Shown here: piece after piece, positions 2,951-12,715 of the stretch
Numbering within the stretch: position 1 is the first letter of the stretch
Layout of the letters: every line of letters starts with the position of its first letter
Source of the DNA: Treponema sp.
Lineage (GTDB): Bacteria; Spirochaetota; Spirochaetia; Treponematales; Treponemataceae
Assembly (NCBI GenBank): GCA_004294945.1
Contig: SHOL01000002.1
Location: forward strand, 1-43,774
Length of the DNA stretch: 43,774 nt
Direction of reading: 5' to 3'
Position numbers and translations under genes: made by a program
Notes under the pieces: model-generated
What the model was told of the DNA's origin: nothing
What the model saw: the letters and a program-made list of their open reading frames with translations, nothing else
The model's database searches: none

Positions 2951-4021
2951 ATGCGTGACAGACTCGACAGGCTCGCCCTTCGCTTCAAAGAACTCGACAC
3001 CGAGATTCAGAATCCCGACCTCATCCGGGACGCCAAAAAATACAAAGACACCATGCGCGAGCATGCCTACCTTTCGGAACTTATGGAAGAGTATGGACGC
3101 TTCACGAACATTGAACGCTCCATCGAAGAAACGAAAGCGCTCATCACGGACGCCGACGATCACGAAATGCGCGAGCTGGCCCGCAATGAACTTGCCGACC
3201 TCGAAAGTTCCTTCGAAGAAAGCGAACAGAAACTCAAGGTACTCCTGATACCGCCGGATCCGCTCGAAGAAAAAAACATCATCATGGAAATCCGCGGCGG
3301 CACCGGCGGCGAGGAAGCAGCGCTTTTCGCGGCCGACCTCTTCCGCATGTACACCCGCTTCGCCGAATCGCGCGGCTGGAAATACGAAATTATGTCCGCA
3401 AACGAAACCGCACTTGGGGGCTACAAGGAAATCACGCTTTCAATCTCCGGCAAGTACGTGTATGGCAGCCTCCGCTATGAATCCGGCGTGCACCGCGTCC
3501 AGCGGGTTCCGGAAACCGAAGCTTCAGGCCGCATCCAGACGAGCGCAGCCACCGTCGCCGTTCTCCCGGAAGCCGAAGAAACCGAAATCGACATACGCCC
3601 CCAGGATCTCCGCATCGACGTCATGCGCGCCGGCGGTCCCGGAGGCCAGTGCGTCAACACCACCGATTCTGCCGTACGCCTCACGCATATCCCTACCGGC
3701 ATCGTTGTTATCCAGCAAGACGAAAAAAGCCAGATCAAGAACAAGGCAAAGGCAATGCGCGTTTTGCGCACCCGTCTTTTTGAGCTCGAAGAAAACAAGA
3801 AAAACTCGGAACGCGCAGCAAACAGGAAACATCAGGTTGGCTCGGGAGACCGCTCCGAGCGTATTCGCACCTACAATTTTCCCCAGAACCGACTGACTGA
3901 TCATCGCATCAACCTCACGCTGTACAAGCTCGACCTCGTGATGCAGGGAGATCTCGACGAACTCATCGATGCACTGTGCATCGCTTCGCGCGAAGAACAG
4001 CTCAAGGCAGAGCTCGCCTGA
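2951..4021 (+). CDS. prfA: Peptide chain release factor 1
   Basis: RF1 recognises UAA and UAG in the ribosomal A site and triggers hydrolysis of peptidyl-tRNA. The 356 residues are standard length. The GGQ loop is at 231-233 in [19 protein letters not shown]; its Gln is the target of PrmC methylation. The stop-codon tripeptide reads P-E-T at 187-189 in [10 protein letters not shown], the PxT form of RF1 and not the SPF form of RF2. The [12 protein letters not shown] motif near 117-127 is also typical. It is followed after 16 bases by prmC, the enzyme that modifies it, a widely conserved pairing. Confidence 0.97.
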
Positions 4022-4037
4022 CGGGAGGGATCGGAAC

Positions 4038-5006
4038 ATGACCGCCGCCGAAGCAAAAAAACAGGGAGTCGCCCTGCTTGGCGGCTTTTCTTCCTCGCCG
4101 GAACTGGATGTTTCCGTCCTGCTCTCCAATTTATTGGGCGTCGGCCGCTCTGCGCTTGCAGCTCATCCCGAGCTGGAAATGGGCAGTTTGGAAACCCGCT
4201 TTTTTGAGCTGATCGAACGCCGCCGGCTAGGAGTGCCTGTAGCCTATCTCACCGGCGTCAAGGAATTCTGGGCTCTTCCCTTTCATGTAACTCCCGACGT
4301 CCTTATCCCGAAACCGGATACCGAAATTCTTGTGGAACGCGCGATCGACCTCCTCAAGCGGTTTACAAGCACCCGCGGGATCCCCGCTCAAGCCGGCGGC
4401 CAGCTTCCCGCCCAAGCCCTCGACCATTCTCCCGCTCAAGCCGCAGGCCCCATTCATGTTCTCGACGTCTGCACCGGTTCCGGCTGCATCGCCATTTCTC
4501 TCAAGCATGCCTGCCCCCGGGTTCACGCAACCGCTACCGACATAAGCGAAGCCGCTCTTGCCGTTGCCCGACATAACGCAACTGTACTGTTAGGAAACCC
4601 GGAAGCAGTAACTTTTCTCCATGGAGACCTCCGTGACGGTCTTCCGCCCTGTCGCAGAGCACAACCTCCAGACAGCACATCACCGGTCCTGAGTACAGAA
4701 GGCTGGTCGCTCATCGTCTCGAATCCCCCGTACGTACCCACAAAACAGGCACAAGCCCTGCTCCTTGACGGGCGAAGCGAACCGCTTCTTGCCCTGGACG
4801 GGGGAACAGACGGGCTCGACCTCGTCAAACCGCTCGTCCGTCACGCCTTCGGGGCTCTTTCACGCGGAGGCTATCTGCTCGTCGAAACCGGTGAATACAA
4901 TGCTGCCAAAGCCGCGGAATACTTCAAGCACACAGGATTTATCGATATACTCATACACAGGGATCTGGAAAACCAGGAACGCGTCGTAGAAGGAAGAAAA
5001 CCATGA
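4038..5006 (+). CDS. prmC: Release factor N5-glutamine methyltransferase
   Basis: SAM-dependent enzyme that methylates the GGQ glutamine of RF1 and RF2. The start is the ATG at 4038, behind a GGGAGGG ribosome site; an upstream in-frame ATG inside prfA is unlikely. The N-terminal helical domain covers about 1-95. The Rossmann domain begins with VLDVCTGSGCIAISL (motif I) and holds the diagnostic SNPPYVP catalytic motif and a C-terminal GGYLLVETG segment. Two insertions stand out: three degenerate 8-residue repeats starting PAQA at about 116-139, just before motif I, and a Pro/Ser-rich stretch (PPCRRAQPPDSTSPVLS) before NPPY. The 322 residues therefore exceed the E. coli enzyme (277). The last four bases overlap the next start (ATGA). 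Confidence 0.95.
   Translation: MTAAEAKKQGVALLGGFSSSPELDVSVLLSNLLGVGRSALAAHPELEMGSLETRFFELIERRRLGVPVAYLTGVKEFWALPFHVTPDVLIPKPDTEILVERAIDLLKRFTSTRGIPAQAGGQLPAQALDHSPAQAAGPIHVLDVCTGSGCIAISLKHACPRVHATATDISEAALAVARHNATVLLGNPEAVTFLHGDLRDGLPPCRRAQPPDSTSPVLSTEGWSLIVSNPPYVPTKQAQALLLDGRSEPLLALDGGTDGLDLVKPLVRHAFGALSRGGYLLVETGEYNAAKAAEYFKHTGFIDILIHRDLENQERVVEGRKP
4383..4454 (+). repeat. Three degenerate 24-bp tandem units inside prmC
   Basis: Units begin at 4383, 4407 and 4431 with cccgctcaagcc or cccgcccaagcc. The exact 24-base spacing adds eight residues per unit (PAQA plus four variable residues). Confidence 0.85.
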
Positions 5007-6817
5007 CTGACGACCCCGAAATCAAAACATTCTTCGCGGACTTTCCCCGCTACACCGAAGAAGACCGTACACTCATATCGGCTGCCTACCGGTATGCTAG
5101 CGAACGCGGACAACCGGCGACCCGTTCGTCGGGAGAACGCTGGATCGCCCACCCGCTGCGGGTCGCACGTATCATTGCCGGGCTCGGACTTGATGCCGAA
5201 GCCGTTGCCTGCGCACTTCTCCACGGTCTTTCTTCACCCGAATCAGGCGACGCATTCAACAAAGAGCTGGAAACAGTGTTCAGTCCGACAATTGCGCGCC
5301 TCGTAGACGGTACCTCGCGCATTTCAGGGCTCAAGATGCGGAACAAAACCATTCAGCAAGCCGAAGCTATTCGGAAAATGTTCTTTGCAATGGTAGACGA
5401 CCTCCGCATCATCCTGGTCCGGCTCGCCGACCGGCTGGACAAAATGCGTACGCTCAAAGCGTATCCGGAAGATGAACGCAAACGCATTGCGCAGGAAACT
5501 GTGGACATTTGGGCACCCTTAGCCAACCGCCTCGGTATCGCTCCGATCAAAGTCGAGCTTGAAGATCTCGGCCTGAAATATACCAACCGCGAAGTCTACG
5601 ACCAGATAAAGAATCTCGTAGCCGCAAAGAAAAACGAACGATCCGAGTTTCTCATCAGGGCCGAAACAGAACTCGTTCAGGCAGCCGCCCGTGCGGGCAT
5701 CAACATAAGAGTCAAATCGCGCGCAAAGCATTTTTGGTCCATCTACCAGAAAATGAAAAAGCGCAACAAGGCCGCAGACGAACTCTTCGACCTTCTCGCA
5801 ATGCGCGTTATCTGCCCCACCCCGAACGACTGCTACGCCGTGCTCGGCCTTGTCCATTCCATCTGGAAACCCCTGGACGGCCGGTTCAAGGATTACATCG
5901 CCATGCCCAAATCGAACGGCTACCAGAGTCTCCACACCACCGTCATGAGCATCGAAGGAATGCCGCTGGAAATCCAAATCCGCACGCCCGACATGCACCA
6001 GATTGCCGAAAGCGGCGTTGCAAGCCACTGGCTCTATAAAAAAGGAACCTCAAAAGAATCTGTTTCTGCGGAAACTATTCCCGTAGTAAACCGGCTCCGG
6101 GAACTTGCAAAAAGCGGCTTCACAGGCGAAGACTTCCTGGTACAAATCAAGGCAGACCTCCTCGGCGATTCCATTTTTGTATTCACCCCCAGAGGTGACA
6201 TCATTGAGCTGCCCTCGGGTTCCACACCCATCGATTTCGCGTACACAATCCATTCCGCTGTCGGCGAAAAAATCGTCGGTGCAAAGGCGAACGGGGCAAT
6301 CATTCCGCTGTCCCAGGCGCTGAAAAACACGCAGGTCGTCGAGATTATCACCCATCCGCAAGCACGCCCGACCATTAACCAGTACCACAGCGTGCGAACT
6401 GCAAAGGCCAGGCAAAAAATCCGATCCTGGCTGCAGGAGCACGATCCGGGCGTCGTCTTCGAGAAAAAAGAAGTTAGTGAAACCGATAAACAAGGAGAAA
6501 CTCAGCGTCAGGCGGTGCACCACAAGGGACTGCTCAGCCTGCACGGAACCCCCGAAACAGTACCGCAGTTCGATTCGGCGGTCCTGAAAATCCGGGTGGG
6601 CGACACTACCAATTTTTTGATTAAATTCGCAAACTGCTGCTCGCCAAAACCTCCGTCCCCCATAATCGGCTATGTGTCGCGGGGCAGAGGAATTATTATA
6701 CATCGAACCGATTGCACCAATCTCGGCAAAATTCCGGAGATTTCCAACCGGAGCATACCGGTGGAATGGGAATTGCCGCCAGATGAAAAGAAACCGGCAA
6801 AATCCGGAAAAAAATAG
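5003..6817 (+). CDS. RelA/SpoT-family (p)ppGpp synthetase, hydrolase site degenerate, no ACT domain
   Basis: Makes the alarmone (p)ppGpp from ATP and GTP/GDP in response to starvation. Order: degenerate HD domain (about 25-190), synthetase domain (about 235-350; FDLLAMR, DYIAMPKSNGYQSLHTTV and the catalytic LEIQIRT), TGS domain (about 390-450; IFVFTPRGDIIELPSGSTPI), and a conserved-cysteine domain near the end (FANCCSPKP, Cys545-546). The first metal His of the HD site (IAHP, His50) is present, but the paired HD reads His74-Gly75 (LLHGLSSPES in place of LLHDxxED). The hydrolase is therefore probably inactive, making this RelA-like in output. It stops at 604 residues soon after the cysteine domain, so the C-terminal ACT/RRM module of long RSH proteins (usually 700-750 residues) is missing. 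The start overlaps the prmC stop. Confidence 0.92.
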   Translation: MTDDPEIKTFFADFPRYTEEDRTLISAAYRYASERGQPATRSSGERWIAHPLRVARIIAGLGLDAEAVACALLHGLSSPESGDAFNKELETVFSPTIARLVDGTSRISGLKMRNKTIQQAEAIRKMFFAMVDDLRIILVRLADRLDKMRTLKAYPEDERKRIAQETVDIWAPLANRLGIAPIKVELEDLGLKYTNREVYDQIKNLVAAKKNERSEFLIRAETELVQAAARAGINIRVKSRAKHFWSIYQKMKKRNKAADELFDLLAMRVICPTPNDCYAVLGLVHSIWKPLDGRFKDYIAMPKSNGYQSLHTTVMSIEGMPLEIQIRTPDMHQIAESGVASHWLYKKGTSKESVSAETIPVVNRLRELAKSGFTGEDFLVQIKADLLGDSIFVFTPRGDIIELPSGSTPIDFAYTIHSAVGEKIVGAKANGAIIPLSQALKNTQVVEIITHPQARPTINQYHSVRTAKARQKIRSWLQEHDPGVVFEKKEVSETDKQGETQRQAVHHKGLLSLHGTPETVPQFDSAVLKIRVGDTTNFLIKFANCCSPKPPSPIIGYVSRGRGIIIHRTDCTNLGKIPEISNRSIPVEWELPPDEKKPAKSGKK

Positions 6818-6901
6818 CCGGAATGCCACTGGAGGCCTTTCGTCATTCCGCCCCCGGCATTCCGGCCATCTGCATTCCGGCCATCTGCATTCCGGCCATC
6901 T
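6817..6901. repeat. 15-bp tandem array (x3) with an upstream complementary arm, between convergent genes
   Basis: Units of gcattccggccatct lie at 6857-6871, 6872-6886 and 6887-6901. Just after the rel stop, gccggaatgcc (6817-6827) is the perfect complement of ggcattccggc at 6856-6866 and can also pair, one base shorter, with the later units. The array may work as a bidirectional terminator between rel and the CBS-ACT gene. No long T-run follows, so the terminator role is inferred. Confidence 0.75.
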
Positions 6902-6931: not shown

Positions 6932-7570
6932 TCAGCGTACGTCGATAATCTCCAGAGCAAACGGCTGAATTGCTTCAACAAGTTTTGGCCGGTCAATGCC
7001 GCTCACCTTCAGAATACACATCTTGCTTGTTACGTCCTTGCCGTCGCAAATCAGCAGCGAAATAATGTTTCCGCCCATATCTGCAATAGTCTGGGATATC
7101 ACTTTCAGCTCGCCCGTGCGCTCCGGCAAAAGAATAGTCAGACGAACCCCTTCCTGGCGGGCTCCGAACAGGTTTATAAACAACCGATACAAATCGCCGT
7201 CAGAAACGATTCCAACAAGGGCTCCGTCCCGCATTACCGGCAACGCACTGATATTATTGTCTACCATTATTCTGGCAGCTTCCTCTACCACTACATCTTC
7301 CTCTACAGTCACAACCTTTTTTTGCATCACTTTCTCGACTTTCAACTTGGAAAGGAGATAACTCATTTCATACATATCAAGCGTTGTCGCAACAGAGGGG
7401 CTCGCGTTTATCAAATCACGTTCGGTAACGATGCCGACCAGCTTGTTGTTCTTGTCCAGAACCGGCAGCCTGCCGACTTTTTCCTTTTTCATAAAAGCCC
7501 GCGCATCGGGAACCGACATGTCGGGATGAATATACAAGGGGTTTCGGGTCATCACATACGAAACATTCAT
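6932..7570 (-). CDS. CBS-pair plus ACT domain protein (AcuB-like)
   Basis: A 212-residue predicted cytoplasmic ligand-sensing protein with no catalytic domain. Two CBS repeats are clear: MTRNPLYIHPDMSVPDARAF with GRLPVLDKNNKLVGIVTERD, then KVMQKKVVTVEEDVVVEEAA with ISALPVMRDGALVGIVSDGD. CBS pairs commonly bind adenine nucleotides. Residues about 140-212 fit an ACT domain (VRLTILLPERTGELKVISQT, then IADMGGNIISLL), a fold that often binds amino acids. The start ATG at 7570 has AGGAGG six bases upstream. It has its own promoter but also lies directly downstream of livF on the same strand. A role as a sensor tied to branched-chain amino acid uptake is inferred from domains and position only. Confidence 0.85.
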   Translation of the reverse strand: MNVSYVMTRNPLYIHPDMSVPDARAFMKKEKVGRLPVLDKNNKLVGIVTERDLINASPSVATTLDMYEMSYLLSKLKVEKVMQKKVVTVEEDVVVEEAARIMVDNNISALPVMRDGALVGIVSDGDLYRLFINLFGARQEGVRLTILLPERTGELKVISQTIADMGGNIISLLICDGKDVTSKMCILKVSGIDRPKLVEAIQPFALEIIDVR

Positions 7571-7672
7571 AAGAATCCTCCTAAGCTTCAAGAGTTAACA
7601 GAACGTGTTCGGCTGTCTCACCGCAAGGCTCTTTATAAAAATTGAAGTGTTTAAAAAAAGTAGCCAGTGTTT

Positions 7673-7707: not shown

Positions 7708-8412
7708 TTACGCACCCAAATATGCTTCACGGACCGTTTTGTCGCTAAGCAGCTCTTTTCCGGAATCAGACTTCACAATGCAACCAGTTTCCAGAATGTA
7801 GGCGCGGGTCGCAATACCGAGAGCCTTGAACGCATTCTGTTCGACCAGAAGCACTGTCGTACCCGAAGCGTTGATCGTCCGGATTATTGAAAATATTTCA
7901 TCTACCAATATCGGTGCCAGCCCCATAGAAGGCTCATCCAACAACAACAGTTTCGGGGATGTCATCAGCCCGCGGCCGATCGCAAGCATTTGCTGCTCGC
8001 CGCCGGAAAGAGTACCGGCAACCTGTCGAATGCGTTCTTTAAGGCGCGGGAACAGTTCGAATACTCGCTCCAAGTCCGACTTTATACCCTCCCGGTCCTT
8101 GCGAATATACGCACCCATTTCCAGATTCTCGCGCACCGTCAGATTCGCAAAAACACGCCGCCCCTCGGGGACATGCACCAGCCCCTTTTTTACAATATCA
8201 TCTGGCGAAGTTTCAGAGATATCGCTGTCCAGAAAGGTTACCGAACCGCCGGATTTTTTTTGAATATTCGAAATAGCATGCAGCGTCGTCGTCTTTCCCG
8301 CACCATTCGATCCGATCAGCGTAATTATTTCACCGGGATGCACCTCGAACGAAATACCTCGCAAAGCCTTGATAGCACCGTACTGAACCGAAAGAGCATC
8401 AACCTTAAGCAT
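7708..8412 (-). CDS. livF: Branched-chain amino acid ABC transporter, ATP-binding protein LivF
   Basis: One of the two cytoplasmic ATPases of the Leu/Ile/Val importer. Walker A is GSNGAGKT near residues 34-41, the ABC signature is LSGGEQQ, and Walker B runs LLLLDEPSMGLAP. SMGLAP after Walker B and ILETG near the C-terminus are typical of LivF over LivG. 234 residues, normal for the family. The ATG at 8412 is chosen; a TTG one codon upstream (8415) is equally well placed behind GAGGAGG. It overlaps livG slightly, the usual coupling in liv operons. Confidence 0.93.
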   Translation of the reverse strand: MLKVDALSVQYGAIKALRGISFEVHPGEIITLIGSNGAGKTTTLHAISNIQKKSGGSVTFLDSDISETSPDDIVKKGLVHVPEGRRVFANLTVRENLEMGAYIRKDREGIKSDLERVFELFPRLKERIRQVAGTLSGGEQQMLAIGRGLMTSPKLLLLDEPSMGLAPILVDEIFSIIRTINASGTTVLLVEQNAFKALGIATRAYILETGCIVKSDSGKELLSDKTVREAYLGA

Positions 8413-9241
8413 CAATCATCGCCTCCTCGCCCAGATACGCCTTGATCACAGCGGGATTATCGCGAATCTCCTCCGGCACGCCGGTTGCAATCACCCGTCC
8501 GTAATCAAGAACAATAAGGCGCTCGCAGATCCCCATAACCAGCTTCATATCGTGTTCAATCAGGAGAATCGTCAGATCAAAACGCTTCCTGATAAACGAA
8601 ATCAATTCCATCAACTCCCGAGTTTCCTGGGGATTCATACCCGCCGCTGGCTCGTCCAGCAACAAAAGCGCCGGATCGGTCGCCAGAGCCCGCGCAATTT
8701 CCAGCTTCCGTTGTTCACCGTACGGAAGATTGCTCGCAGATTCATCCTGCTTGTCGGCAATCCGGAAAAGCTCAAGCAGCTCAACTGCCTTCTTCCGGAG
8801 CCGCTCATCGTCGCGATAAAACGCCGGAGTCCTGAAAATCGCGTCGAGCGGCCCGATTCTCCGCTGCATGTGCATGGCAATCAGCACATTGTCCAGCACG
8901 CTCAAGTTTCCAAACAGCCTGATATTCTGGAACGTCCGCGCAATCCCGAGCTTCGCCAGCTGATGCGGTTTACGGTTATGAACCTGAACAGTCCTGCCGT
9001 TTTTGTCCGTAAACAGAATCTCGCCTTCAGTCGGCGTATACACACCCGAAAGCATATTGAACACCGTCGTCTTGCCGGCGCCGTTCGGTCCGATCAGTCC
9101 AACAAGTTCACCTTTTTTCAACCTGCACGAAAAATTGCTTACCGCCCTCAAACCGCCAAAAACAATCGAAATATCCTCAACATTCAAAAGCACATCAGGT
9201 ATCCTGAACCCATGGCGGGACGCCTCACTTTTTTTTGCCAT
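8405..9241 (-). CDS. livG: Branched-chain amino acid ABC transporter, ATP-binding protein LivG
   Basis: Second ATPase of the importer. Walker A is GPNGAGKTT, the signature is the LivG-type LPYGEQRKLEIARAL, and Walker B is LLLLDEPAAGMNP; AGMNP is characteristic of LivG. After Walker A the sequence reads VFNMLSGVYTPTEGEI, as in other LivG proteins. A 14-residue Lys/Arg-rich N-terminal extension (MAKKSEASRHGFRI) precedes the core. It overlaps livM by 17 bases and livF by 8. Confidence 0.93.
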   Translation of the reverse strand: MAKKSEASRHGFRIPDVLLNVEDISIVFGGLRAVSNFSCRLKKGELVGLIGPNGAGKTTVFNMLSGVYTPTEGEILFTDKNGRTVQVHNRKPHQLAKLGIARTFQNIRLFGNLSVLDNVLIAMHMQRRIGPLDAIFRTPAFYRDDERLRKKAVELLELFRIADKQDESASNLPYGEQRKLEIARALATDPALLLLDEPAAGMNPQETRELMELISFIRKRFDLTILLIEHDMKLVMGICERLIVLDYGRVIATGVPEEIRDNPAVIKAYLGEEAMIDA

Positions 9242-10214
9242 CAGACGTCCTCCTCAGCGCACCCAGACGGTCAAACAACCGCACAAACGACAGTTCCTTC
9301 ATTCCAAGCAAACCCTGCGGACGGAATAACATTACCAGAATCAGAATCAGCGGGTAAAACAGCAAACGGTATTCCTGCAAAAACCGAAGAAATTCCTGCA
9401 GATACGTCAGAATAAACGCCGCAAGAATAGAACCGGTGATGCTTCCCATTCCGCCCAGCACAACATAAATCAGATAGTCCACGCTCCGGTTGAACGACGA
9501 AAGGTCAGGTTTCACAAACCCGATAAACGGCGCGTACAGCGCCCCGCCGATTCCCGCAACAAAAGCCGCAATCACAAATCCGGTCATCTTATATCGAAAC
9601 ACGCTTATCCCGCTCGAATTCGCAGCAATCTCATCCTCTCTTACAGAGAAGATAGCGCGACCATACGTGGAGCGCAAAAAATTCTGCAACAGAACGACCA
9701 GCAGAACAAGAACGCCGATCACCGTAAGCCAGGCATAATCCGCTCGAGCAGCCAGCAGAGTCGTAAACTGTTTGCCGTTCGGCCCGCCCGTAACTGATTT
9801 CAGGTTAACAAACACCACCCGCAGAATTTCGCCAAAACCGAGCGTCACGATAGCCAGATAGTCTCCCGAAAGCTTGAGCGTCGGGAAGCCAATCAAAAAC
9901 CCCATGAAAGCTGCCATCAGCCCACCGGCTGCAATGGAAAGCGGTAACGGCAGATGTGCGACCTGAGTCAGCCATATTGTGGTATATGCGCCAACAGCCA
10001 TGAATCCGGCCTGACCGAGCGACAGCTGTCCGGTAATACCGCAGATGATATTAACACTAATCGCCATGATAGCATTAATTCCTGCAAGGGTGATTATCTG
10101 GGCGACATACCCGTCGATAATCGAGCGGTTTATCAAAATAGCGGGTACAATTATTACCAGAGCCGACACCACTGTCAGCAACAGAAACGACTTAATACGT
10201 TTATCAACGTTCAT
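9225..10214 (-). CDS. livM: Branched-chain amino acid ABC transporter, permease LivM
   Basis: Inner-membrane permease, 329 residues with about eight to nine hydrophobic segments. Family signatures include SVNIICGITGQLSLGQAGFMAVGAY split across two neighbouring segments, LSGDYLAIVTLGFGEILR (the coupling-helix region that contacts the ATPase) and VVLGGMGSITGSILAAF. It has a short cytoplasmic N-terminus (MNVDKRIKSF). The start ATG overlaps the livH stop as ATGA, so translation is coupled to the other permease. Confidence 0.93.
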   Translation of the reverse strand: MNVDKRIKSFLLLTVVSALVIIVPAILINRSIIDGYVAQIITLAGINAIMAISVNIICGITGQLSLGQAGFMAVGAYTTIWLTQVAHLPLPLSIAAGGLMAAFMGFLIGFPTLKLSGDYLAIVTLGFGEILRVVFVNLKSVTGGPNGKQFTTLLAARADYAWLTVIGVLVLLVVLLQNFLRSTYGRAIFSVREDEIAANSSGISVFRYKMTGFVIAAFVAGIGGALYAPFIGFVKPDLSSFNRSVDYLIYVVLGGMGSITGSILAAFILTYLQEFLRFLQEYRLLFYPLILILVMLFRPQGLLGMKELSFVRLFDRLGALRRTSDGKKK

Positions 10215-11110
10215 ACTTTAATCCTGTCTTTCTTCCCCATAATACCGGTCGGTTTAACCAGCAATATGAGGATCAAAATTCCAAAAGAAATTGCATCGGA
10301 AAACTGGGACGACAAAAACCCTTTGGTCATCGTTTCTGCAACTCCCAGAATATATCCCCCAAGCATCGCCCCAGGTATAGAACCGATTCCGCCCAGAACG
10401 GCGGCGACAAAAGCCTTCAGTCCAGGCATCGCTCCCATTGTCGGATCGATCTGCGGGTATGCCGTAGCAAACAGTATTCCGCCGGCAGCGGCAAGAACAG
10501 AACCGAGGGCAAAGGTAAAAGCAATCACACGATTCACCGAAATTCCCATCAGACTGGCAGCCTTTAAGTCATACGACACAGCGCGCATAGCCTTGCCGAT
10601 TTTTGTCCAGTTAACGATATAATTCAGAATAATCATCAAAATAACAGACACCAGCAAAACCGTAATCTGAATGTTGGAAATCCCGAACCCGCCTGCAGAA
10701 ATATTAACCGTCTGCATCGTCGGATACTGTCGCGGATTCGGTCCGACAAACGGAAGAACACGCGCCCCATTCTGAAGTATCAGCGAAACTGCTATAGCAG
10801 TAATGAGCGAATTAAGCCGGGGCGCAGATCGAAGCGGACGATACGCAAATCGTTCGATAGTCATGCCCAGCACAGCGCACAGCGCCATCGACGCCGAAAA
10901 AGCCAACAACAAAGCAACTGGAGAAGGGCCCATAGCATGCAATACATAAAACCCGGTATACGCGCCTACCATCAGAATATCGCCGTGTGCAAAATTGATC
11001 AGCTTGACGATACCATAGACCATCGTATATCCGAGAGCGATCAAGGCATAAATACTTCCAAGGGAAAGGCCATTGATCAGCTGTTGAACCAGAATAACGA
11101 AAGAATCCAC
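10211..11110 (-). CDS. livH: Branched-chain amino acid ABC transporter, permease LivH
   Basis: First gene of the livHMGF operon and the second permease. The GTG at 11110 is chosen because AGGAG lies about seven bases upstream and the protein then begins VDSFVILVQQLINGLSLGSI, like other LivH proteins; an in-frame start further upstream would lie in the leader hairpins. 299 residues. Typical segments are YALIALGYTMVYGIVKLINF followed by AHGDILMVGAY, and AFVAAVLGGIGSIPGAMLGG. The downstream genes are all coupled by overlaps. Its leader holds three stem-loops and a separate promoter. Confidence 0.92.
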   Translation of the reverse strand: MDSFVILVQQLINGLSLGSIYALIALGYTMVYGIVKLINFAHGDILMVGAYTGFYVLHAMGPSPVALLLAFSASMALCAVLGMTIERFAYRPLRSAPRLNSLITAIAVSLILQNGARVLPFVGPNPRQYPTMQTVNISAGGFGISNIQITVLLVSVILMIILNYIVNWTKIGKAMRAVSYDLKAASLMGISVNRVIAFTFALGSVLAAAGGILFATAYPQIDPTMGAMPGLKAFVAAVLGGIGSIPGAMLGGYILGVAETMTKGFLSSQFSDAISFGILILILLVKPTGIMGKKDRIKV

Positions 11111-11128
11111 AATGCAACTCCTATGTGA

Positions 11129-11193
11129 GCCGATTTTTAAAAAGTCGGTTACTTTTTCAAATCGGCTTTTGGAGAAAAATAACAAGTCTTTCT
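11129..11193. repeat. Dispersed intergenic repeat, copy A
   Basis: The hairpin gccgattt...aaatcggc and the following bases match 41362-41423. The best part, 11163-11193, is identical to 41393-41423 except for one base in 31. Same orientation on the plus strand. Confidence 0.75.
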
Positions 11194-11268
11194 ATCAAAA
11201 AAACTTGTTACTTTTCTCCATGTTAATCTAAGGTTGCTTTTTCAAAACTTTCCCAGTTTTGAAAAAGC
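11129..11268 (-). promoter_or_regulatory. Leader of livH with three consecutive stem-loops
   Basis: Three inverted repeats lie between the livH promoter and the livH start. 11236-11268 has perfect 14-bp arms and a 5-base loop. 11171-11218 has about 16 of 17 arm bases paired and a T-run at the edge of its loop. 11129-11166 has about 15 of 16 arm bases paired. All would be in the 5' untranslated RNA. No T-run follows the stems, so they are not plain terminators. A regulatory or RNA-stabilising role is inferred. Confidence 0.6.
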
Positions 11269-11284
11269 CTCATGTGTATTGTGC

Positions 11285-11313
11285 ATTATACGTGAGCTTT
11301 CGGGAAAAGTCGA
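11285..11313 (-). promoter_or_regulatory. Promoter for livHMGF
   Basis: Minus-strand -35 TCGACT (11308-11313) and perfect -10 TATAAT (11285-11290), 17 bases apart. This lets the permease/ATPase genes be expressed separately from livJ, whose terminator lies just upstream. Confidence 0.6.
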
Positions 11314-11417
11314 TTAGTTTGACAAATTCAAGACACCTTAGACACTTCTGTTTTTTATGTCCACGCAGGATGCACAAAATATTCTTCTGAATTCATTACA
11401 CGCAGCCATGATGCGCA

Positions 11418-11453
11418 TAAAAAAAGCTGTCCGGTTTTCATTCCAGACAGCTT
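11418..11453 (-). terminator. Rho-independent terminator after livJ
   Basis: Read on the minus strand, AAGCTGTC pairs with GACAGCTT around a 14-base loop and is followed by a run of T. It separates livJ from livHMGF. Confidence 0.85.
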
Positions 11454-11506
11454 CAACAGGAACGTTCCGCCGAATAAGAGGCGGAACCACCCAAGATCAC
11501 AATATA

Positions 11507-12670
11507 TCAGGGATTAACAGTTGCCTTGTACACAGGAACAAGCTTGCCGTCTCTTTTTACTATCTCGAGCATAACAGCTGACTTGGTCGGATTTCGCTTC
11601 TCATCGAACGAAAGATTTCCTGTCAGGTAAGAACCTTTGGTTTTCTCCAGCGCTGCCTGCACCTTCACCGGATCAGCCGAACCGGAAGCAATAATCGCAT
11701 CCTTGATGACATACATGGCATCGTACGCAAGCGCAGCAAATGAAGTCGGAGTAGCGTTGAACTTTTCGCTGTATTTCTTTACAAAGTCGATAACCTTACC
11801 GTCGGTGGAGTCAGATGCATAGTGGTTCGAATAAAAACCGTTCAGCATTTCGTCTCCGGCGTTGTCAACTATTCCGTCCCAGCCGTCGGCACCTACTATC
11901 GGAACATTGAGCCCCTGGGCACGAAGCTGTTTGGCGATCAGAGCAACAGTGCTGTAATAATCGGGCAGATAGACAACCTCAGGATTCGCATTCTTGATTT
12001 TGGTAAGCTGGGCATTGAAGTCCTTGTCTCCGGTATTATAAGACTCGGCTGCCACAATTGTACCCCCGGCGGCTTCAAAACCAGCCTTGAAATTATCAAA
12101 AAGTCCAACAGAGTAATCATTTCCAACATCATAGAGAACTGCAGCTTTCTTCAGTCCAAGATTTTCGAAAGCGAATTTCGCTCCGACTTTGCCTTGGAAA
12201 GGATCGATAAAGCACACGCGGAAAATAAAATTCCCGGCATCCGTCACCGCGGGAGCCGTTGCTGCTGGAGCAACAACAACCACTTTTTGCGCTTGCGCCA
12301 GAGAAGTAATCGCCATCGTACAACCCGAAGTCAACGAACCGATAAACAGCTTCGCACCGTCTCTTGTAGTCAACAATTTATAAGCGCTCACAGATTTTTC
12401 GGGATTGCCTTCATCATCTTCAGCGATCAGCTGAACAGTCTGCCCATTGATGCCGCCGGCTGCGTTGATTTCTTCAACTGCCAACTGAACGCCGTTACGG
12501 GCTTCAGTACCATATACAGCAACTGCACCGGAAAGCGGAAAAATCCCACCAATCTTGATTGTGGATTTCGCATCCTTGCCTGCTTTATCTGATTTTGCAC
12601 AGCCGCCGAGAACGGCAACAGAAACAAAAACAAGAGCAAGCATTGATTTCAAAACAAAACTCTTTTTCAT
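11507..12670 (-). CDS. livJ: Branched-chain amino acid ABC transporter, substrate-binding lipoprotein
   Basis: Binding protein (LivJ/LivK type, type I periplasmic fold) that captures Leu/Ile/Val for the importer. The ATG at 12670 has AAGGAGAGG just upstream; an earlier in-frame start would spoil the signal peptide. Residues 1-23 are a lipoprotein signal ending VLGGC with the modified Cys24, so the mature protein is membrane-anchored. The core shows IKIGGIFPLSGAVAVYGTEA, the following ELAVEEINAAGG-like stretch (reads QLAVEEINAAGG) and LIAEDDEGNPEKSVSAYKLL. 387 residues. Its own strong promoter and terminator allow a high binding-protein to permease ratio. Substrate preference among aliphatic amino acids cannot be read from sequence. 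Confidence 0.92.
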   Translation of the reverse strand: MKKSFVLKSMLALVFVSVAVLGGCAKSDKAGKDAKSTIKIGGIFPLSGAVAVYGTEARNGVQLAVEEINAAGGINGQTVQLIAEDDEGNPEKSVSAYKLLTTRDGAKLFIGSLTSGCTMAITSLAQAQKVVVVAPAATAPAVTDAGNFIFRVCFIDPFQGKVGAKFAFENLGLKKAAVLYDVGNDYSVGLFDNFKAGFEAAGGTIVAAESYNTGDKDFNAQLTKIKNANPEVVYLPDYYSTVALIAKQLRAQGLNVPIVGADGWDGIVDNAGDEMLNGFYSNHYASDSTDGKVIDFVKKYSEKFNATPTSFAALAYDAMYVIKDAIIASGSADPVKVQAALEKTKGSYLTGNLSFDEKRNPTKSAVMLEIVKRDGKLVPVYKATVNP

Positions 12671-12715
12671 AACCTCTCCTTCACATGTACCCTTAAGCAC
12701 AGATTAACAAGTTTT

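Follow-up and report, generated by a model that had tools for sequence, protein, structure and literature searches.

A Treponema Rel protein with a degenerate hydrolase site and no ACT domain, and a small alarmone hydrolase gene behind valS in the same genome

The analyzed window is a 43,774-nucleotide stretch of a Treponema sp. draft genome (346 contigs, 77.6% complete), in which further synthetases or hydrolases may have gone unseen, and it carries a long RSH gene, rel, behind prfA and a prmC-like gene. Names such as the Asp of HD are those of the Rel literature, and the hydrolase positions were numbered as in RelSeq (H53, D78, N148 and so on). The features of the locus are as follows.

2951..4021, + strand: prfA (release factor 1), upstream of rel, in a conserved prfA-prmC-rel order
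3969..5006, + strand: prmC-like gene, directly upstream of rel, its stop overlapping the rel start (ATGA)
5003..6817, + strand: rel, long RSH, with degenerate HD, SYNTH, TGS, linker and zinc finger/CC in this order, without helical domain and without ACT
5084..5539, + strand: HD (hydrolase) domain, HD_4 residues 28-179, fold kept in the model and PDB matches, catalytic set incomplete
5222..5227, + strand: His74-Gly75 replacing His-Asp, the Gly75 codon being GGT at 5225-5227
5240..5245, + strand: Glu80-Ser81 replacing Glu-Asp, after a two-residue insertion behind HG
5429..5443, + strand: Asp143 kept and Lys147 replacing Asn (LADRLDKM), from alignment of the ADRLHNM motif
5717..6046, + strand: synthetase domain (PF04607, 145.6 bits), with RFKD (RXKD) motif and invariant residues intact
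6173..6352, + strand: TGS domain (Pfam match) with tRNA-CCA-contacting His417, invariant in the alignment
6443..6586, + strand: linker at the place of the helical domain of other Rels, poorly conserved in the alignment, pLDDT <50 at residues 488-527
6608..6772, + strand: zinc finger/CC domain, the C-terminal-most, with Cys545-Cys546, GRG 561-563, His567 and Cys571

The 604-aa product carries HD, SYNTH and TGS domains on a single protein, as a long RSH does, and matches TIGR00691 (spoT_relA) at 585.7 bits, over the cut-off. Beside HD_4, Pfam places RelA_SpoT at residues 239-348 and TGS at 391-450; neither ACT nor AH-RIS (PF19296) was matched on this protein, and both were matched, together with the other three domains, on the outgroup Rel L024. 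The sequence-only reading of this DNA had the protein ending after its cysteine domain with no ACT module, which is borne out by Pfam and by the C-terminus lying about 14 residues past the zinc-finger/CC domain. The gap from the rel stop to the convergent next gene is only 114 bp and leaves no room for an ACT domain, so a frameshifted ACT downstream was rejected. The synthetase motifs, likewise read as intact, are so in the invariant columns of the alignment and in RFKD at residues 294-297, an RXKD synthetase motif and not the EXDD of RelA. The AlphaFold model (mean pLDDT 77.6, moderate, with residues 488-527 low) retains the HD fold, and the best Foldseek matches were B. subtilis Rel (PDB 6yxa, the best fold match), ribosome-bound RelA and SpoT. 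Over the entire chain, TM-scores reached only about 0.5, a value that a different arrangement of domains probably explains.

Downstream of rel, a 15-bp unit is repeated in three perfect head-to-tail copies (6857-6901), followed by a convergent gene for a CBS-CBS-ACT protein (6932-7591, - strand) and a branched-chain amino acid ABC transporter cluster (7708-12700, - strand), presumably of the liv type. The CBS-CBS-ACT gene adjoins rel in all 10 Rel-bearing genomes of the genus that were seen and is located elsewhere in other genera. B. subtilis Rel is activated by DarB, itself a CBS protein (PMC9848473), so a role of the CBS-CBS-ACT protein in Rel regulation is conceivable by analogy.

The intact hydrolase residues of a bifunctional Rel are not retained in the window protein, in which Gly75, Ser81 and Lys147 stand at three of the positions, with His50, His74, Glu80 and Asp143 still present. 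The HD pair had been read as His74-Gly75, and this is upheld by the GGT codon and by the other same-genus Rels (HG in 8/9 and HA in the ninth). The loss of the following ED pair, also claimed, is half right: the Asp is gone, but the Glu is retained behind the insertion. The third broken motif (Asn to Lys147) and the absence of the helical domain were overlooked at that stage.

Comparison across the order was based on 51 Rel N-terminal regions from five families (f1, the family of the window, 31; f2, 1; f3, 8; f4, 8; f5, 3) and 10 outgroup Rels retrieved with the window protein as query; G032, with a Rel split over contig ends, was left out of all motif counts. The full hydrolase set (R/H/H/D/E/D/D/N) is present in 10/10 outgroup Rels and, within the order, in G036, G045 and G053. 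Among f1 Rels the Asp of the HD pair is lost in 30/31, with G, N, S, A or E in its place, and the Asn of the ADRLHNM-type motif in 31/31; in the one Rel that keeps the Asp (G018), Asp143 is replaced by Glu and the Asn by Arg. Tyr-Ser takes the place of His-Asp in the Rels of T. vincentii and Candidatus Avitreponema, so the His is gone too. In f4, the Asp is replaced by His or Gln in 8/8, and in f3 the Asp is retained in 8/8 and the Asn replaced by Ser in 8/8. The insertions that f3 Rels (L114, L116, L130 and others) carry directly after the HD motif are very variable in length, the domain being otherwise conserved.

As to ACT, of the 30 f1 proteins with a C-terminus, 29 stop 0-23 residues past the point where the window protein ends in the alignment, and 20/20 Rels of f2-f5 have tails of 64-81 residues. 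The contrary f1 row, G021 (L124), keeps a 77-residue ACT-like tail that is unrecognised by Pfam, and the HD motif on its N-terminal fragment is degenerate.

A candidate for the missing activity is encoded in the window's own genome. A search with the small alarmone hydrolase (SAH) of a relative as query recovered a 193-aa protein at G000:C198:6190-6771 (- strand), a stand-alone HD protein with intact FRHQ, HDVIED and ADRISN motifs, that is, with the HDxxED and Asn motifs of the ActSpo2 type. It scores 19.6 bits against Pfam HD_4, under the cut-off of 27.2, and the HD_4 search of this genome returned Rel only. The ActSpo2 and DsRel classes were reportedly defined by Jimmy et al. 2020. The C198 protein is of the ActSpo2 type and an orthologue of T. 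denticola Tde-SAH; it shares 73% identity with its counterpart in G025, a genome that is probably T. denticola-like, and matches PDB 7p1y (E 2e-91). According to PMC10434055, Tde-SAH hydrolyses (pp)pGpp in a Mn2+-dependent manner and its D74A mutant, the equivalent of Gly75 in the window Rel, has no detectable hydrolysis; by analogy, the C198 protein would be a Mn2+-dependent alarmone hydrolase. The expectation that a synthetase lacking its hydrolase needs another enzyme, and the search proposed along with it for a second RSH or small hydrolase, thus led to an intact small hydrolase, but not to the RelA/SpoT split that had been envisaged, as no further long RSH turned up in the 77.6% complete genome.

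The SAH gene is widespread, being found in 50/59 relatives, 267/291 genomes of the order and 169/177 of the high-quality ones; an apparent stop inside the SAH of G045 is merely its terminal stop. In the window's genome it follows valS at a distance of 15 bp, the two together occupying G000:C198:6190-9495 (L166), and valS is directly upstream in 27/30 loci (L133-L162) and in 6/6 further loci. This spacing and the conservation of the pair through the order suggest that valyl-tRNA synthetase expression is linked to alarmone removal.

No SAH was detected in 9/59 relatives, seven of which have a degenerate Rel (G001, G002, G003, G005, G008, G027 and G043). Of these seven, four have no valS and three have it truncated by the end of a contig; the gap therefore looks like an assembly effect, and the idea that some same-genus species are without a hydrolase was rejected. 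The remaining two retain valS: G030, of 1.1 Mb, in which no RSH was found, and G036, with an intact Rel, for which the masked stretches in the valS contig prevent use as proof of complementarity. The order contains 24 SAH-less genomes, and 15 further ones among those listed were examined for valS: nine are without a true valS (best hits of 22-31% identity), valS is cut in G074 and G083, and the contig of G189 ends after valS. In G183, G205 and G222 (all f5), valS is present with no SAH behind it; these three absences have no assembly explanation and count against the reading favored below.

These absences bear on the alternative that survives best, namely that (p)ppGpp hydrolysis persists in an HG-type HD domain whose metal binding is rearranged around His50, His74, Glu80 and Asp143. 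All four residues are in the window protein, two His and the Asp persist in most of f1, and no SAH was detected in five relatives of the same genus whose Rel is of the HG type; however, the valS contig is missing or cut in such SAH-less relatives. A functional rearrangement is also difficult to reconcile with a substitution that varies among G, N, S, A and E, with the Tyr-Ser Rels that have no His at this position, with the loss of the Asn throughout f1 and with the dead D74A mutant of T. denticola SAH (PMC10434055). Residual hydrolysis by the window Rel is therefore considered unlikely.

That the rel gene is instead decaying toward loss, and no longer encodes an active synthetase, is very unlikely. 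Long RSHs occur in nearly all other Treponema species according to PMC10434055. In favor of decay, a long Rel was not found in G025, G030 and the f5 genomes G039, G042 and G056. The three f5 genomes are 93-99% complete with prfA and SAH present, an apparent case of total Rel loss in a second family; G007 and G010 were set aside as Rel-less candidates, with the prfA contig of the former ending just downstream and prfA not found in the latter. Against decay in the window lineage, the open reading frames are intact, and mean pairwise identity among 29 f1 proteins is 78% for SYNTH and 76% for TGS compared to 52% for HD, with a median HD/SYNTH divergence ratio of 2.20 in f1 and 1.17 in the outgroups. 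Little or no variation is seen at the synthetase residues, at the TGS His that contacts the tRNA CCA (PMC7058999), at the two zinc-finger cysteines or in the GRG motif, and synteny is kept. Judged from these divergences, the HD domain is evolving under what appears to be relaxed constraint while the rel gene is retained.

A split of the RelA/SpoT type by duplication, with an undetected SpoT-like long RSH performing hydrolysis, has a still smaller chance of being correct. The genome is incomplete and could conceal such a gene, and in what is present of it no SpoT paralogue was found beside the window Rel, the one long RSH detected. In the relatives, though, each genome has its strong HD_4 matches in a single Rel and only short proteins otherwise carry a synthetase domain, the motif of the window protein is RXKD and not EXDD, and the locus is syntenic with intact Rels. 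Among the short proteins, DsRel-type SAS are present in many relatives and none was found in the window's draft genome; some genomes have a third stand-alone RelA_SpoT protein of ~230-280 aa (L092-L098) besides Rel and a TPR-type DsRel. Lastly, an error of sequencing or assembly at 5225-5227, which the single draft genome of many contigs might invite and which had been named as a refuter of the first reading, is refuted by the independent genomes carrying HG or HA and has a negligible chance of explaining the result.

The reading that we favor, at a probability of roughly 0.85, is that the window encodes a synthesis-only Rel, probably ribosome-triggered, that would have arisen in parallel to proteobacterial RelA, with hydrolysis passed to a separate enzyme. 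The HD domain keeps its fold without the metal- and substrate-site residues and, as these are lost and mutants of homologues are inactive, should not hydrolyse (p)ppGpp. Because the contact residues of the synthetase, TGS and zinc finger are intact, the protein most likely makes (p)ppGpp on a starved ribosome with deacylated tRNA bound. Removal would fall to the separate, valS-linked ActSpo2-type SAH, as extrapolated from the T. denticola orthologue, and a strong separate hydrolase could make an ACT-less Rel tolerable. The first reading also expected the loss of ACT to change ribosome sensing; the window protein retains its contact residues in TGS and the zinc finger, and the ACT-less RelA of Francisella still responds to ribosomes (PMC4708007).

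The evolution of the system was approached with a quick IQ-TREE analysis of 60 rows that excluded the HD domain and the N-terminal fragments G017 and G021N. Families f1, f3, f4 and f5 each formed one side of a branch. The canonical and degenerate states are separated by at least three changes, with four changes for the Asp and five for the Asn; the count itself gives no direction, and losses of the canonical site are the natural reading because the outgroups are canonical. Loss of ACT maps to one event, in a count that excluded G021. The prfA-prmC-rel order was found in f1, f2, f3, f4 and f5, including the intact-Rel loci of G036, G045 and G053, and as this locus is shared with intact Rels of the order, the window protein is a vertically inherited Rel and not an acquired RelA. 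SAH co-occurs with the intact Rels of G045 and G053. Since SAH is near-universal in the order and present beside these two intact Rels, it probably came first and would have let the Rel hydrolase decay repeatedly, with ACT lost later, in f1. The fuller scenario is tentative and may well prove incorrect: the valS-linked SAH made the Rel hydrolase dispensable across the order, at least three independent decays followed, and f1 lost ACT as well, so that a minimal synthetase sensing the ribosome remained, composed of HD fold, SYNTH, TGS and zinc finger. If true, alarmone removal would depend on how the valS operon is expressed and not on a conformational switch within Rel.

In a long RSH, a single protein alternates between two opposed states, one for synthesis and one for hydrolysis. 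In these treponemes the two activities have apparently been uncoupled repeatedly, outside the proteobacteria and without duplication of Rel, and the need for the HD fold, the helical domain and ACT becomes testable once hydrolysis lies elsewhere. No account of a hydrolase-dead Rel class in treponemes was found in the open-licence PMC literature. Atkinson 2011 (PMC3153485) lists the Rel of Spirochaetes as bifunctional and gives as ACT-less the RelA of three proteobacteria and the Rel of Elusimicrobium; annotations naming the present Rels bifunctional would be wrong. The lack of ACT is puzzling, because E. coli RelA and B. subtilis Rel become toxic when ACT/RRM is deleted by engineering, through overproduction that depends on the ribosome (PMC7058999). 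About thirty species here have a natural ACT-less Rel.

Several known systems allow for direct comparison. With bifunctional Rel, as in B. subtilis (PDB 6yxa), the window protein shares lineage, the HD-SYNTH-TGS-zinc finger order, RXKD and the locus of the order's intact Rels, and differs in being without hydrolase residues, helical domain and ACT/RRM. With beta/gamma-proteobacterial RelA it shares the long RSH form, a retained but degenerate HD domain and presumably synthesis-only activity; in contrast, it has RXKD and not EXDD, has lost other residues, is without ACT, and belongs to a genome without a detected SpoT paralogue, where hydrolysis would, by analogy, be performed by the small SAH. 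T. denticola has Tde-SAH (TDE1690, ActSpo2) and Tde-SAS (TDE1711, DsRel) with no long RSH (PMC10434055), whereas the window genome would pair a synthesis-only long Rel with SAH, DsRel not having been found in the draft. The closest likeness in architecture is Francisella tularensis RelA, which combines a degenerate HD with no ACT (PMC4708007; PMC7058999); that protein is proteobacterial, with EXSD, whereas here the loss extends across a family of spirochaetes and takes in the helical domain as well. The naturally ACT-less Francisella RelA is activated 11-fold by E. coli ribosomes (PMC4708007) and thus sets a partial precedent for activity and ribosome stimulation in a protein of this build.
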